DNA of 64,000 nucleotides from Thermoplasmata archaeon (GTDB lineage Archaea; Thermoplasmatota; DTKX01; VGTL01): contig JAWCLH010000007.1 of assembly GCA_038851035.1 (NCBI GenBank), forward strand, positions 1 to 64,000, written 5' to 3'. A program made the position numbers and the translations under genes. The stretch's first letter is position 1; each line of letters starts with the position of its first letter. The notes beneath the pieces are model-generated. The model was not told the DNA's origin. It saw only the letters and a list, made by a program, of their open reading frames with translations, and searched no databases. This document shows, in pieces, positions 19,562 through 42,491 of this stretch.

Positions 19562-21895
19562 CTACTCTCCCCTGAACTCCGGCCGCCGCTTCTCCATGAA
19601 GGCTCGCATCCCCTCCGCCTTGTCCCGCGTGGTCATGCACTTCATCACAGTCTCCAGCTCGTACCTGAGGCCTTCTTCAAGACCCGTCTCGAGGGCCTTG
19701 TTTATCGCAGACTTCGCGAGTGCGACCGCAATGGGCGCGCCCGCGGCGACCGCATGCGCGAGGACCCTTGCCTCGGCCATCAGGCGCGCGGGCGGGACGA
19801 CGCGATCCACGATTCCGAGCTGGAGGGCGCGCTGAGCGTCAATGGTGTCGCCGGTGAATATTAGCTCGCACGCCCTCGACTTTCCAATGAGTCGGGTCAG
19901 CCTCTGCGTGCCCCCGAGGCCCGGGAAAATGCCTAGCCTGACCTCGGGGAGTCCCAGCCTCGCCCTCTCGGACGCTATTCTGATGTCGCAGGCGAGCGCT
20001 GTCTCCAGACCGCCGCCGAGGGCGAAGCCGTTTATTGCCGCGATGACCGGCTTTCCGAGCCCCTCGAGCCTTCTTAGGACGCGCTGGCCCAGCTCCGTGA
20101 ACTCACGGATTTTCTCGGGCGGCATGGAGCTCATGTCCTTTATGTCGGCGCCTGCGATGAATGCCCTGCCCTCGCCAGTCAGAATCACGGCCCTGACCTC
20201 GCGGTCCCCCTCCAGCTCCTCGAGAACCCCTTCAAGGTCCCTGAAGACCGCTCCATTGAGGGCGTTCAGCTGGTCGGGCCTGTTGACGAGGACGGTCGCT
20301 ATCTGCCCCTCCCTCTCCAGCCTGACCACTCTCGCCTTCCAGGGCAGGCCGCTCGCGGCCTGCCGCTCCAGAAGCGCGGGCACGGGGAAGGTCCCCCTCG
20401 ACCTCTCGCTCAGCCCCCTTACTAGGGCAAGTGTAGCCCCGAGGCCGAGCTCGTTCATCATCGCGAACGGTCCGACCCTCCAGCGCAGGCCGATTGTCGC
20501 GCCCGTGTCCGCGTCCTCTATAGTAGCCACGCCCTCCTCGACCATTTTTACGGCAACGCCGAAGACCACGGCCCTCAGACGGTCGGCGACGGCGCCGAAC
20601 CTCTCCTTGTCCACCTCTCCCGTCAACTCCCAAGGCTTCCCTGAGCCGGCCTGCTTCCTGAGAGACTCGGCCGGCTCGTAGAAAGGCCCGAGGGCCTTCG
20701 CGAGAGAGCTCTCGGCATGGAAGGCTATTGGAACGCCCGTGGCGTTCATCAGCTCGAAAGGACCCATCGTGATTCCAAAGGCCTCCTTCGCGGCCTCGTC
20801 AATCGTCCGGATGCTGGCCGCGCCCTCCTCCATGAGCCTGCAGGCCTCATTGAGCCACGGCACGAAGAAGCGGTTGACGGCGAACCCGGGTGCGTCCTTC
20901 ACGCGAATCGGTATCTTGCCGGTTATCCGCGCCAGCTCCATGAGTGCGGACACAACCTCCGGTGCGGTCCTTTCCCCTGCCACAACCTCGAGCAGCTGGT
21001 TGACCGCGGCCGGGTAGAAGTAGTGGAGGCCTGCGAAGCGCTCTGGCCTGTGCGTCACCTCTGCCATCTCGGTGATGCTGAGCGAGGACGTGTTGGAGGC
21101 AAGAATCGTGTCCGGCGCGCAGACCGCGTCCAGCTCGGCGAAGAGCTTCTTCTTCACCTCGAGGTCCTCGAAAACGGCCTCGACCACCAGCCCCGCGCCC
21201 TCCACGGCTTCCTTCATTGATGTGAAGCCCCGAATACGGGCCATCATTTTTTCTAGCTCGTCCGCCTTCATCTTGCCCTTTGCGACCCTCTTCTCAAGGG
21301 GCCCCCGAATTCTGGCGAGCCCCGCCTCAACGAATCTCTGCTCGATATCCAAGAGGGAGACCTCGAAACCCGCCTGCGCGAAGGACTGGGCGATTCCTGA
21401 GCCCATGTTGCCAGCGCCGACAACGCAGACCTTTTTGATTCCGGCGACTATGTCATCGGCGGTGCTGCGAGGTCTGAACCTGAAGAAGACCCTCCCGTCC
21501 TCGAGGGCGATTGTCCTGAACTCAACATCCATCCCGGGGGTCACGTCCTCGTATTTGACGCCGTCTATGCGCGAGGCCACTTTAATTCCGGTGCCCTCGA
21601 GCTCCACCACGCCCAGAACGAATGGTACGTCCCTCTCGAAGCCCATCGGGGCTCCCGCTAGCATCGCGCTGTAGTTCACGAGCTTGCCGAACTTTGGCAG
21701 GTCCACCCACTCTAGCTCGTCCGAGTTACATGAAGGACAGACCACTCGAGGGTGCCAATGGAGCTCGCCGCACTTTTTACATTTTGTCGTGGTGAGCCTC
21801 CCCCTCCTCAAGTTGTCGAAGAAGGGCTGAATTCTCGTGTTCTTCTCCCCCTGGAGGGGGTAGAAGTCCAGCGCCACTGGCAGGTCTATTTTCAT
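19562..21895 (-). CDS. DUF35 acyl-CoA-tether + 3-hydroxyacyl-CoA dehydrogenase + enoyl-CoA hydratase fusion
   Basis: 777 residues in three parts. 1-145: DUF35 with rubredoxin-like zinc ribbon (C39, C42, C53, C56) and OB fold. 150-520: 3-hydroxyacyl-CoA dehydrogenase, NAD site GAGNMGSG (160-167), His291 in GLHYFYPA, and tandem C-terminal helices. 525-777: crotonase fold with oxyanion segment FIAGADIKDM and catalytic Glu631 (GGGLE) and Glu651 (LPEVRLG). HAD-ECH fusions are common in archaea; the extra DUF35 domain is not usual. DUF35 normally accompanies a thiolase, and here the thiolase gene overlaps this one by ATGA, so a channelled thiolase-dehydrogenase-hydratase complex is plausible. Confidence 0.93.
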   Translation of the reverse strand: MKIDLPVALDFYPLQGEKNTRIQPFFDNLRRGRLTTTKCKKCGELHWHPRVVCPSCNSDELEWVDLPKFGKLVNYSAMLAGAPMGFERDVPFVLGVVELEGTGIKVASRIDGVKYEDVTPGMDVEFRTIALEDGRVFFRFRPRSTADDIVAGIKKVCVVGAGNMGSGIAQSFAQAGFEVSLLDIEQRFVEAGLARIRGPLEKRVAKGKMKADELEKMMARIRGFTSMKEAVEGAGLVVEAVFEDLEVKKKLFAELDAVCAPDTILASNTSSLSITEMAEVTHRPERFAGLHYFYPAAVNQLLEVVAGERTAPEVVSALMELARITGKIPIRVKDAPGFAVNRFFVPWLNEACRLMEEGAASIRTIDEAAKEAFGITMGPFELMNATGVPIAFHAESSLAKALGPFYEPAESLRKQAGSGKPWELTGEVDKERFGAVADRLRAVVFGVAVKMVEEGVATIEDADTGATIGLRWRVGPFAMMNELGLGATLALVRGLSERSRGTFPVPALLERQAASGLPWKARVVRLEREGQIATVLVNRPDQLNALNGAVFRDLEGVLEELEGDREVRAVILTGEGRAFIAGADIKDMSSMPPEKIREFTELGQRVLRRLEGLGKPVIAAINGFALGGGLETALACDIRIASERARLGLPEVRLGIFPGLGGTQRLTRLIGKSRACELIFTGDTIDAQRALQLGIVDRVVPPARLMAEARVLAHAVAAGAPIAVALAKSAINKALETGLEEGLRYELETVMKCMTTRDKAEGMRAFMEKRRPEFRGE

Positions 21896-23064
21896 TTCTT
21901 ATCCCTCCCGTAGACGAGGATGCTGTGAACGTTGGCCGAGCCGCTCAGGTTGTGGCTTAGGGCTCTCTCCGCACCCGCGACCAGCCTCTTTTGCGGAACG
22001 AGTGAGTTGAATTGCCAGAATATCTCGATGGCCTGCCCGATGCCTGTGGCGCCGAGAGGGTGGCCGCAGCCGAGCAGACCGCCGCGGGTGTTGACCGGGA
22101 TTTTCCCGCCGATATCCGACTGCCCATCTTCGATGAATTTCCCGCCCTTCCCCTTCTCGCAGAACCCGAGCTCCTCGTACTCCATTATCTCCGATATTGT
22201 GAAGCAGTCATGGGTCTCGGCGAAGTCGAGGTCCCCTGGCTCTAGCCGGGCGCTTCTGTAGGCCTCTTTTGCCGCCGCCCTGAGGGGCTCCCAGGTTGCC
22301 ATGTCCCTGTGCCTGTATATCAGATTCCCCATTGCGCACTGGCCGCTGCCGATTATGTAGGCCGGGGTGTCGCAGTACTTCTTTGCCTCCTCGGCCGGTG
22401 CAAGAAGCACCGCGGCCGCGCCGTCGGTGATTCCTGAGCAGTCGAGCAGCCTGAGAGGGGGGGAGACCATTAGAGAGTTCGATATCTCGTCGAGCGTGTA
22501 CTCCCTCTGGAAGTGCGCGTAAGGGTTTGTGGAGGAGAACCTGTGGTTCTTCTGGGAGACGAGCGAGAGCTGCTCCCTCGTGGTTCCGTACTTCCTCATG
22601 TGCTCCTGCGCCACCATTGCGAAGAAGGGTGGGGCCGAGAAGCCCATCACTCCCTCCCAGTCCCTGTCAAGGACCGCCGCCATGGAGGCCTGGGCCTCGA
22701 GCATGTTGGGGAGGTTCATCTTCTCCGCCCCGACCGCCAGAGCGAGGTCGCTCATTCCGGTCGCTATCGCCATGTAGGCGACGCGAATCGCGCACTGGCC
22801 CGAGGCGCAGGCGAGCTCGGTCCTCATCGTCACTTTGCGCGGCGTGATGCCGAGCGCCTCGGCCACCATTGGCGCCACATGGGCCTGAAATGTGAACCTC
22901 TCGGGCTGGGCGGCGCCCACGATTAGGCTGTCGATGTCTTTCTTGTCGAGATTGCGCGTCGTGTCGAAGAGCATCTTCCCCGCCTCCTGCACCATCTCGC
23001 GCCAGGAGGCGCTGCGCACCCCCCACTTCGACAGGCCCGCGCCGACTATCGCGACCTTCCGCAT
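21892..23064 (-). CDS. Acetyl-CoA C-acetyltransferase (archaeal thiolase)
   Basis: 390 residues. Nucleophilic C86 lies in TELACASGQ, His285 in AETHDCF, and the second Cys/His pair in GCGHPLGATG (C333, H335), all as in the archaeal/SCP-x type thiolase family that requires a DUF35 partner. It condenses or cleaves acyl-CoA and acetyl-CoA. Upstream, a TATA-like box (about 23094-23104, minus strand) and GGGGGAT before ATG support the start. Its stop codon overlaps the ATG of the DUF35-HAD-ECH gene. No HMG-CoA synthase is adjacent, which argues for fatty-acid or butyrate-type metabolism rather than the mevalonate route. Confidence 0.93.
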   Translation of the reverse strand: MRKVAIVGAGLSKWGVRSASWREMVQEAGKMLFDTTRNLDKKDIDSLIVGAAQPERFTFQAHVAPMVAEALGITPRKVTMRTELACASGQCAIRVAYMAIATGMSDLALAVGAEKMNLPNMLEAQASMAAVLDRDWEGVMGFSAPPFFAMVAQEHMRKYGTTREQLSLVSQKNHRFSSTNPYAHFQREYTLDEISNSLMVSPPLRLLDCSGITDGAAAVLLAPAEEAKKYCDTPAYIIGSGQCAMGNLIYRHRDMATWEPLRAAAKEAYRSARLEPGDLDFAETHDCFTISEIMEYEELGFCEKGKGGKFIEDGQSDIGGKIPVNTRGGLLGCGHPLGATGIGQAIEIFWQFNSLVPQKRLVAGAERALSHNLSGSANVHSILVYGRDKK

Positions 23065-39829: not shown

Positions 39830-40699
39830 TCAGGGCTCCTTCCAGTCGATTATTTTCCTTACCGGGCTGATGTTCATCCCGAGACCCAGGCGGTCCGGGT
39901 CGAGGCCCATGGCAAGGCCCAGTAGCTGGGTATAGTAGATCACGGGAAGGCTGAGCTCGGCTCCTATCGTCCTTCCGCATATGTCCTGCGTGTCGAGCAT
40001 CTTCTGGCAGGAGGGGCAGACGGTCACGACGGCGTCAATGCCCGCCTCCTGAATCGCCTTGATTTTCTGACCCGCCATCGTGAAGGCTGCGCTGTCGTTC
40101 TTCAGGAGCAGGGGTGCGCCGCAGCAGTCAAGCTTCTGGGGATAATAGGGGGAGGATGCCCCGAGCGCCTCGATGAGGCGGTCGAGCTTCTGGGGATTCT
40201 CCGGGTCGTCCTGCCTGCCGACCGCGCTGGGCCTGAGGGCGTGGCAGCCGTAGTGCGGCACGATTTTCAGCCCCCTGAATTTCCTGAGGGCTGAGGCCTT
40301 TATCCTCTCCGGGCCTATGACGTCGTGAAGGAGCTCGACGATGTGCATCACTCTCGATGTCCCCCTGTACTCAAGACCCTCTGTGGAGAGGACAGCGTTC
40401 ACCCTCCGCTTCATGCCGTCGTTATGGTCAAGGACGTGCTTGGCCTCGAGGAGAGTCATCCGGCAGCCCGTGCAGAATGTCATTATGTCCAGACCAGTCC
40501 CCTCGCCTATGGCGATGTTGCGCGCGGCGAGGTATAGGAAGGCGAAGGGGTTGATGCTGCGAATCGTCACCCCGCAGCACGAGTGGCCCGGACAGTCCAC
40601 GAACTCCACCCCGAGCCTGCCCAGCGTCTCGCGGGCCGACATCTCGTAGGCGTAGGCCTCGGTGGTTATTGCGCAGCCGAGGTAGAGCGCGTACTTCAT
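39830..40699 (-). CDS. hdrB: Heterodisulfide reductase subunit B-like protein
   Basis: 289 residues with two CCG domains: C9, C41-C42, C76, C79 in the first and C152, C192-C193, C228, C231 in the second (FVDCPGHSCCG...FCTGC; HYGC...LDCCGAP...CPSC). In methanogens these bind the two non-cubane [4Fe-4S] clusters that reduce CoM-S-S-CoB. Here no methanogenesis genes are seen, so the disulfide or other acceptor is unknown. Its ATG overlaps the hdrC stop as ATGA. No hdrA follows; 39676-39829 downstream is empty. Confidence 0.93.
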   Translation of the reverse strand: MKYALYLGCAITTEAYAYEMSARETLGRLGVEFVDCPGHSCCGVTIRSINPFAFLYLAARNIAIGEGTGLDIMTFCTGCRMTLLEAKHVLDHNDGMKRRVNAVLSTEGLEYRGTSRVMHIVELLHDVIGPERIKASALRKFRGLKIVPHYGCHALRPSAVGRQDDPENPQKLDRLIEALGASSPYYPQKLDCCGAPLLLKNDSAAFTMAGQKIKAIQEAGIDAVVTVCPSCQKMLDTQDICGRTIGAELSLPVIYYTQLLGLAMGLDPDRLGLGMNISPVRKIIDWKEP

Positions 40700-41256
40700 T
40701 GCTGGTCCTCCAGAAGGCTCTGGCAAAGGGCGCCGGTCAGCGCCTCCCTGAACTTCTCCATGTCCACGGGCCTCGAGGCCTCGCCGAGACCTGCGCCCTT
40801 CCTGTCGGTAAATCTCTTTTTACCGGTCGCGACGCTCCTGTAGAGAACCTCGACGGGGTCCTGAATCAGCCCCTTCTCAATGACCGCTTGAAGGACTCCT
40901 GCGAAGCCGGGAGGCACGGGGAGGCCCCTCTGGACCGCTATTGAGCGCAGGAGGAGAATGACGTCCACCGGCGTGACCTTCTGGGGGCACCTCTCCTTGC
41001 ACTTGAAGCACGTAACGCAGCACCATATGACCTCCGACTTCAGCAGCTCTTCTGTGAAGCCGAGGTTGAATAGTGCCATGACCTCGTGGGGGTGGAGCTC
41101 GAGGAGCTTCATCGCCGGGCAGCCGGCGGTGCACTTGACGCACTGGAGGCAGTAATCCGGTGTTTCCTCCCTCATCTCCCTGAGCATTCGCCTCTCTAGC
41201 TCGCTGACCTCGCTGGAGCTCTCAGCGGAGCTCATTTGGTCAGTCAGGTCCGACAT
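40696..41256 (-). CDS. hdrC: Heterodisulfide reductase subunit C-like protein
   Basis: 186 residues with two ferredoxin-type clusters: C36, C39, C42, C46 (CLQCVKCTAGC) and C80, C83, C86, C90 (CVTCFKCKERC). It passes electrons to HdrB, whose gene overlaps by four bases. An AT-rich TATA-like stretch (41281-41292, minus strand) and GGAGGG precede the start. The gene lies 33 bases after the end of the acyl-CoA dehydrogenase gene on the same strand, so the three may share a transcript. This order suggests an electron path from acyl-CoA oxidation into HdrBC (inference). Confidence 0.93.
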   Translation of the reverse strand: MSDLTDQMSSAESSSEVSELERRMLREMREETPDYCLQCVKCTAGCPAMKLLELHPHEVMALFNLGFTEELLKSEVIWCCVTCFKCKERCPQKVTPVDVILLLRSIAVQRGLPVPPGFAGVLQAVIEKGLIQDPVEVLYRSVATGKKRFTDRKGAGLGEASRPVDMEKFREALTGALCQSLLEDQQ

Positions 41257-41289
41257 CTCGCCATCACCCTAGCCCTCCGTTTATTTAAA

Positions 41290-42408
41290 TTATTTGAGAA
41301 GCTCCGCCGCCACCGCCAGCCTATGCGAGTCGGGTGGCGATGGATAGACCGCGAGAGCCATTGCGTCCCTATAGTATCTCTCCACCGGCATCTCCTTCGT
41401 ATAGCCCACCCCCCCGTGAACCTGTACCGCCTTGTTCCCGACCCGCACGCTGGAGTCTGCGGCGTGGGCCCTAGCCATCGCCGCCGCCATCCTGATGTCC
41501 TCCCCGTTGTCGCGCGCGAAGGCAGCTCTGTAGACCAGGAGCCTCGTCGCCTCGGTCTCTATCGCCATCTCGGCCAGCATGGTCTGAATCGCCTGAAATT
41601 TCGCGATAGGCTGGCCGAACTGGACGCGGATTTTGGCATAGCCCACCGAAGCCTCAATCGCGGCCCTGGAGACGCCGACCGAGGCCGCCGCGAGCCCGAT
41701 TCCATCCACGGCTAGAACGCTCTCCAGAATTCGGCTGGCCCCGCCCTCCGGCCCGATCATGTTCGCCACCGGGACGTGGGCGCTGAACTCAACGGGGCCG
41801 ATGCCCGCGCCACGGAGACCGAGCAGCTCCTCCCGCTCTCCCAGCGCTACGCCATCTCCCCTCTCCACCACGAAGAGGGTCGGGCCCTTCTCCGTCGTCG
41901 CCAGCACTATAAAGACACCCGCCTCGGACGCCATGGGCACGAAGAGCTTTTTACCAGTGATTCTGAACCCGTCGCCCTCGCGCGCGGCGGTGGTTCGCAG
42001 GGTCGAGAGGTCCAGACCCGCTCCGCTATCGAGGAGGGCCAGGGTCCCGAGGGTTTGACCCGAGGCCAGTGCGGGGAGGAGAGAGGCCTTCTGCTCCTCG
42101 CTCCCGAAGGCGGCGATGGGAAGGATGCCCAACGCGTTGTGCGCCCCGACCACGCGCGCTGTGGAGGCGCACGCCCGGGCCAGCTCTTCAACCGCTATCG
42201 CGAATGTGATGGTGTCCACTCCAGCGCCGCCGCACTCTTGGGGGGCGAGAAGGCCGAGGAGCTGGAGCTCCGCCATCCTCCGGATGGTCTCGACCGGAAA
42301 GGTCCTCTCCTCGTCGGTCCTTGCGGCGCGTGGCGCGACCTCCTTATCCACGAACTCCCTGACCATGTCCCTCGTCAGCGCCTGAACCTCGCTAAGCCTG
42401 AAGTCCAT
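41290..42408 (-). CDS. Acyl-CoA dehydrogenase
   Basis: 372 residues, full-length ACAD fold. C-terminal signature GGVGYTKEMPVERYYRDA is good. The catalytic Glu of the butyryl/medium-chain type (IYEGT) is replaced: the sequence reads VYPSPPD. A Glu at the isovaleryl-CoA dehydrogenase position (E229 in RILESVLAVDG) could serve instead. The FAD segment usually reading TEPGAGSD is LLDSGAGLD here. It probably acts on a branched or otherwise unusual acyl-CoA, if active. ATG 42408 has a G-rich site upstream and a TATA-like box at 42451-42460; the open frame extends to 42471. Confidence 0.88.
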   Translation of the reverse strand: MDFRLSEVQALTRDMVREFVDKEVAPRAARTDEERTFPVETIRRMAELQLLGLLAPQECGGAGVDTITFAIAVEELARACASTARVVGAHNALGILPIAAFGSEEQKASLLPALASGQTLGTLALLDSGAGLDLSTLRTTAAREGDGFRITGKKLFVPMASEAGVFIVLATTEKGPTLFVVERGDGVALGEREELLGLRGAGIGPVEFSAHVPVANMIGPEGGASRILESVLAVDGIGLAAASVGVSRAAIEASVGYAKIRVQFGQPIAKFQAIQTMLAEMAIETEATRLLVYRAAFARDNGEDIRMAAAMARAHAADSSVRVGNKAVQVHGGVGYTKEMPVERYYRDAMALAVYPSPPDSHRLAVAAELLK

Positions 42409-42491
42409 TCCATTCCCCCTAGCGATCCACGCTCTCCGCAACTCAGCCGCATTATAAAAACCTTTTATCATTTGGCCGCCTTCTCACCAAC

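Follow-up and report, generated by a model that had tools for sequence, protein, structure and literature searches.

The window analysed here is a 64,000-nucleotide stretch (positions 1 to 64,000, forward strand, of contig JAWCLH010000007.1) of the Thermoplasmata archaeon assembly GCA_038851035.1 (G000; 2.69 Mb, 99% complete). Our subject is a pair of overlapping genes on its minus strand, which encode a thiolase and a protein joining a DUF35 domain to a 3-hydroxyacyl-CoA dehydrogenase (HAD) and an enoyl-CoA hydratase (ECH). The thiolase open reading frame (23064-21892, 390 amino acids), of the archaeal/SCP2 type (PRK06064-like), adjoins the 777-amino-acid fusion frame (21895-19562), and the stop codon of the first and the start codon of the second share an ATGA (21892..21895), indicative of translational coupling. 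Both this overlap and the DUF35 domain at the N-terminus of a dehydrogenase-hydratase fusion had been reported in a preliminary description of the locus, and Pfam, with all matches above its cut-offs, supports the order DUF35-HAD-ECH on a single frame. The DUF35 domain (residues 1-142, 21470..21895), delimited by Pfam, PDB profiles, AlphaFold2 fold matches and conservation, comprises an N-terminal tail and helix, a rubredoxin-like zinc ribbon (zf-ChsH2 at 29-62, 3.6e-11, 43.1 bits against a cut-off of 23.2) and an OB fold at 61-142 (OB_ChsH2_C at 63-126, 7e-12, 45.5 bits against 27.1). It is followed by the linker RSTADDIVAGI (residues 143-153, 21437..21469), placed by alignment and modelled chiefly as a helix (146-152); by the HAD part (residues ~154-520, 20336..21436), in which Pfam, motifs and fold match identify 3HCDH_N (155-334, 7.8e-64) and two C-terminal 3HCDH modules (best stretch 337-418); and by a short-chain crotonase-like ECH domain (residues ~521-777 and the stop codon, 19562..20335), assigned by Pfam (ECH_1 at 528-776, 1.6e-66) and by sequence and fold matches. 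The full-length model of the fusion reached a pLDDT of 92 and a pTM of 0.85.

The thiolase has the complete catalytic set (Cys86, H285-D-C287 and GHP with His335) of a catalytic archaeal/SCP2-type thiolase. In the fusion, the four zinc cysteines of DUF35 (Cys39/42/53/56) are all kept, the GAGNMG motif (160-165) and the His291/Glu303 dyad of the HAD part are intact, and so are the AGADI, GGGLE and GLPEV motifs of the ECH part. Judged by module order and active-site motifs, the fusion is predicted to be a HAD-ECH bifunctional enzyme of the archaeal Msed_0399 type, a fusion of the same modules in the same order that lacks DUF35.

The DUF35-HAD-ECH fusion is real. The same protein, 72% identical over residues 1-777, is encoded in an independent metagenome-assembled genome, G001 (VGTL01000010.1, locus L036), the only other sampled genome of the source's order, with the linker at the same position and the same ATGA; this recurrence rules out a chance reading frame or an assembly artefact. 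The architecture is not widespread: no further example was found among 389 Thermoplasmatota genomes or in the best 80 loci of a contig scan covering one genome per species (84,980 species), which works on exact short peptides, so that distant independent fusions may escape it. Long reading frames at L012, L044, L101, L043 and L098 were rejected as candidates since Pfam finds no DUF35 in them, and a match at L048 beginning at residue 56 proved to be an alignment extension without DUF35. A full-text literature search, which covered few subscription papers, returned no description of DUF35-HAD-ECH, and HAD-ECH is not among the DUF35 fusions listed in the SSO2064 paper, namely those to thiolases, SDR-like Rossmann domains, SCP2 and hot-dog dehydratases (PMC2954200). 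The parts are known, and their combination seems new. The fusion is a new domain architecture, restricted to one lineage of uncultured archaea, and it follows a principle already known, the use of DUF35 as a docking adaptor for thiolase-fold enzymes.

Standalone DUF35 proteins, 46-61% identical to the fused domain, occur in 28 other Thermoplasmatota genomes and at locus L037, and the orthologous thiolase lies directly upstream on the same strand in all of them (28/28 genomes and L037); the ATGA between the thiolase and its downstream gene is found at L036, L037 and L166. Separate HAD and ECH genes follow the pair directly in G381, G292, G359 and G002 and a joined HAD-ECH gene does so at L037, while in G003 and G004 the HAD-ECH gene is located 2.3 kb further on the same strand, past opposite-strand genes. 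Aligned to the L037 proteins, the window protein consists of a complete DUF35 (ending in FFRFRP, 142) joined end-to-end to a complete HAD-ECH (starting with KKVCVVGAG) by RSTADDIVAGI, and this linker stands where the separate-gene form has a stop codon and an intergenic gap. The window thus represents, by sequence comparison, the end of a gene-fusion series and its most compact state, leading from four genes (thiolase, DUF35, HAD, ECH) to three (HAD-ECH joined) and then to two (DUF35-HAD-ECH joined). As this comparison shows, the fusion arose by the merging of neighbours in an older thiolase-DUF35-HAD-ECH operon. A relic or neutral fusion, in which DUF35 still binds the thiolase and co-transcribed genes lost the stop codon that separated them with no gain but co-expression, would agree with the persistence of separate-gene forms in all other genomes; however, the fusion has been kept in two genera at 72% identity, and its DUF35 is about as constrained as the enzyme domains (69% identity between the two fusions, compared with 74% for HAD and 72% for ECH), so that we regard a neutral origin as possible but doubtful.

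A recurrent thiolase - DUF35 - ECH - HAD/ECH operon is also present in Desulfobacterota-type loci (L058, L062, L080, L084, L085, L090, L094, L098, L107, L109 and L114). In the trees, its thiolase and DUF35 do not group with those of the window clade, and its parts resemble a remote equivalent of the window system.

Three indirect tests bear on whether the fused DUF35 still fits a thiolase partner. In the DUF35 and thiolase trees, the copies of the window and of G001 group with the adjacent pairs in a clade supported by SH-aLRT values of 100 and 99, and the correlation between the pairwise distances of the two proteins is 0.88, a value matched by 0/2000 permutations, to which shared species history contributes. 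Among 29 standalone DUF35 copies, 35 positions are conserved in 90% or more; the window fusion keeps 34 of these and the G001 fusion 32. Finally, as a fold search with the full model returned HAD and ECH matches, DUF35 was folded separately (AlphaFold2, pLDDT 85), and its best matches are thiolase-bound DUF35s in Ltp2-ChsH2 (Z 16.5) and Sal-Shy (16.1), followed by those of the archaeal thiolase/HMG-CoA synthase (HMGCS) complex (13.7), PhlABC (13.5) and BbsAB (12.3); further DUF35 proteins match as well (Trf 13.8, MucABC 13.0, SSO2064 9.8), and unrelated OB folds reach about 6. The low-confidence stretches of the full model, 1-20 and 81-90, carry the conserved residues L9 D10 F11 P13 and G81 P83 G85 E87 and align with the N-terminal tail and loop 74-87 of PhlB, which lie buried at the contact with PhlA/PhlC and seal off the active-site cavity (PMC6392133). 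The three tests agree and indirectly suggest that residues 1-145 remain a thiolase partner. Membership of the thiolase-docking kind, as implied in the earlier description, is predicted for this domain, in line with the gene pairing in every sampled genome, the retained tail and loop, and the predicted fold.

We propose that the two genes encode a DUF35-docked trifunctional enzyme of β-oxidation type, which we consider probable. In the proposed assembly, the thiolase would form its usual dimer, flanked by two DUF35 domains that each bear a HAD-ECH body on a short linker, and the DUF35 of the fusion would clamp the thiolase by its N-terminal tail and the 79-90 loop, as expected from homology to PhlABC, Sal-Shy, Ltp2-ChsH2, BbsAB and the archaeal thiolase/HMGCS complex. 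Because DUF35 is covalently linked to HAD-ECH by a short linker, hydration, oxidation and thiolysis would take place on one probable α2β2 assembly, leading from 2-enoyl-CoA via 3-hydroxyacyl-CoA and 3-ketoacyl-CoA to acetyl-CoA and acyl-CoA. What the fusion likely brings is a fixed stoichiometry together with proximity: tethering would hold the low-equilibrium 3-ketoacyl-CoA beside the thiolase, and its immediate thiolysis would draw the unfavourable oxidation step onward, with the opposite effect in the direction of synthesis.

For the docking of such a fusion there is a bacterial precedent in Shy, a DUF35-MaoC hydratase that docks on, and co-purifies with, the thiolase-fold enzyme Sal, whose reaction it precedes (PMC11321319). 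Like the window pair, Shy-Sal of Comamonas testosteroni and ChsH2-Ltp2 of Thermomonospora use a DUF35 fused to a β-oxidation hydratase to dock the preceding enzyme on an adjacently encoded thiolase-fold C-C lyase, and by analogy the window fusion may work like Shy. In contrast, these systems have a MaoC hot-dog hydratase, no dehydrogenase, an aldolase as lyase and steroid substrates, whereas the window has HAD and crotonase modules and a thiolase that retains all catalytic residues. Membership of the Shy/ChsH2 family of DUF35-hydratases was rejected, since the window hydratase has the crotonase fold (ECH_1) and not the MaoC hot-dog fold. In BbsAB, the benzoylsuccinyl-CoA thiolase, and in PhlABC, a DUF35 subunit is likewise clamped on a dimer of the thiolase family, but it is not fused to HAD-ECH.

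Several points weigh against the proposed trifunctional enzyme. In other systems a DUF35 partner does its work as a standalone protein, so that the benefit of fusing it may be small, and 19 genomes of one family have no HAD or ECH gene directly behind the thiolase-DUF35 pair. The transcription unit of the thiolase and the fusion contains no acyl-CoA dehydrogenase or CoA ligase. Moreover, Shy-Sal illustrates that DUF35 tethering need not channel (PMC12329534).

This last point bears on a stronger version of the proposal, a true channelling machine in which HAD-ECH would take the place of HMGCS and the 3-ketoacyl chain would swing from HAD to the thiolase in a fused CoA site at the DUF35-thiolase interface. 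The closest solved DUF35 by sequence (6esq_E, 6.1e-27) belongs to the methanogen thiolase/HMGCS complex, in which acetoacetyl-CoA swings between thiolase and HMGCS, HAD-ECH is covalently held to DUF35, and the linker is short and mostly helical in the model, compared with the 26-residue disordered linker of Shy (PMC12329534). However, HMGCS shares the thiolase superfamily and HAD-ECH is unlike it, and the authors of the Shy-Sal study consider direct channelling unlikely in their system, where the linker is long (PMC12329534). We regard a channelling machine as rather unlikely. A new trifunctional class, in which DUF35 rather than an interface of the FadA/FadB type joins the thiolase to HAD-ECH rigidly enough for direct transfer of 3-ketoacyl-CoA, with the ancestral operon spread across Thermoplasmatota, is likewise a tentative idea that we hold to be on the improbable side.

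FadAB/FadIJ and the mitochondrial trifunctional enzyme resemble the window system in carrying HAD and ECH on one chain, together with a thiolase, for three consecutive steps by homologous modules. The preliminary description had called the system comparable but unrelated to FadAB, which is wrong at the level of modules, since the HAD part shares ancestry and fold with that of FadB (Z 45 against 1wdk_A) and the ECH part is a crotonase; the modules are permuted and DUF35-docked. FadB has the order ECH-HAD without DUF35, and FadA, a classical thiolase, docks differently. The fusion was accordingly rejected as a FadB-type α subunit by its order DUF35-HAD-ECH and by its score of 386 bits with the NCBIfam FadB/FadJ equivalog model (cut-off 869).

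The nearest relative of the window thiolase in the PDB is the archaeal acetoacetyl-CoA thiolase 6esq_A, and the thiolase/HMGCS complex belongs to the same branch of the thiolase superfamily and contains the nearest solved DUF35 and thiolase by sequence. This raises the question of whether the pair serves the mevalonate pathway as its acetoacetyl-CoA thiolase, with HAD-ECH as a secondary attachment. No archaeal HMGCS (TIGR00748) exceeded the cut-off in the source assembly, 99% complete as it is, which would suit this explanation; the sister genome G001 has one, and the absence is perhaps an assembly gap. A canonical HMGCS is encoded elsewhere in 13 of 15 related genomes, G001 included, and the proteins of the HMGCS-thiolase-DUF35 operon of G107 are only 44% and 26% identical to the window pair, which makes a mevalonate function very improbable. 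The thiolase/HMGCS complex has DUF35 as a subunit of its own and HMGCS in the partner role, and its pair is paralogous, not orthologous, to that of the window. With no HMGCS beside the pair and a separate orthogroup, assignment to the archaeal mevalonate complex was rejected. Of the earlier suggestion that three consecutive steps are carried on one scaffold, the three predicted β-oxidation-type activities with intact motifs, probably in one assembly, stand; the notion of an HMGCS complex with a new partner does not.

The ECH domain is closest to the short-chain crotonases 5zai and 5z7r, and this, together with the affinity of the thiolase to 6esq_A, makes substrates in the C4 range plausible by sequence. 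The homologous HAD-ECH enzyme Msed_0399 also takes C8 (PMC7078158). All three reactions are reversible, and archaeal β-oxidation genes have been proposed to run backward without acyl carrier protein (PMC6449355), so that the system could condense acetyl-CoA toward crotonyl- or longer acyl-CoA in a synthesis of fatty-acid or polyhydroxyalkanoate type. However, six acyl-CoA dehydrogenase genes in the source genome, one of them within the window, favour oxidation, and sequence alone does not give direction; we consider reverse operation conceivable but less likely. The acyl-CoA dehydrogenase gene of the window is followed by genes for an HdrC-like 4Fe-4S protein and an HdrB-like protein with a CCG domain (39830-42471, minus strand), a cluster whose sequence suggests that an Hdr-like electron carrier is coupled to the dehydrogenation of acyl-CoA.

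As a Rosetta-stone fusion, the window protein ties the standalone thiolase-DUF35 pairs of Thermoplasmatota to HAD and ECH partners and predicts that three steps are physically united in organisms about whose fatty-acid metabolism little is known. On at least two occasions, DUF35 would have recruited the enzyme of the preceding step to a thiolase-fold partner, and the hydratases involved are not related to each other, being MaoC in the bacterial case and a crotonase in the window. The natural fused, half-split and split versions make the question of tethering versus channelling directly testable.

Two further DUF35 loci of the source genome differ in composition. On contig C33 (L180, 5081-7911), a KASIII/HMGCS-like protein with a C-terminal DUF35, a second DUF35 fusion in this genome, is followed by a thiolase homologue and methylmalonyl-CoA mutase. 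On contig C3 (L181, 4684-7294), a thiolase homologue without the catalytic Cys, the HDC motif and the GHP His precedes two tandem DUF35 genes. Elsewhere, at L171, L172 and in other genomes of family f7, the thiolase-DUF35 pair adjoins genes for the large and small subunits of an aconitase-family enzyme, an HMGL-like protein (isopropylmalate/homocitrate synthase type) and an isopropylmalate/isocitrate dehydrogenase.

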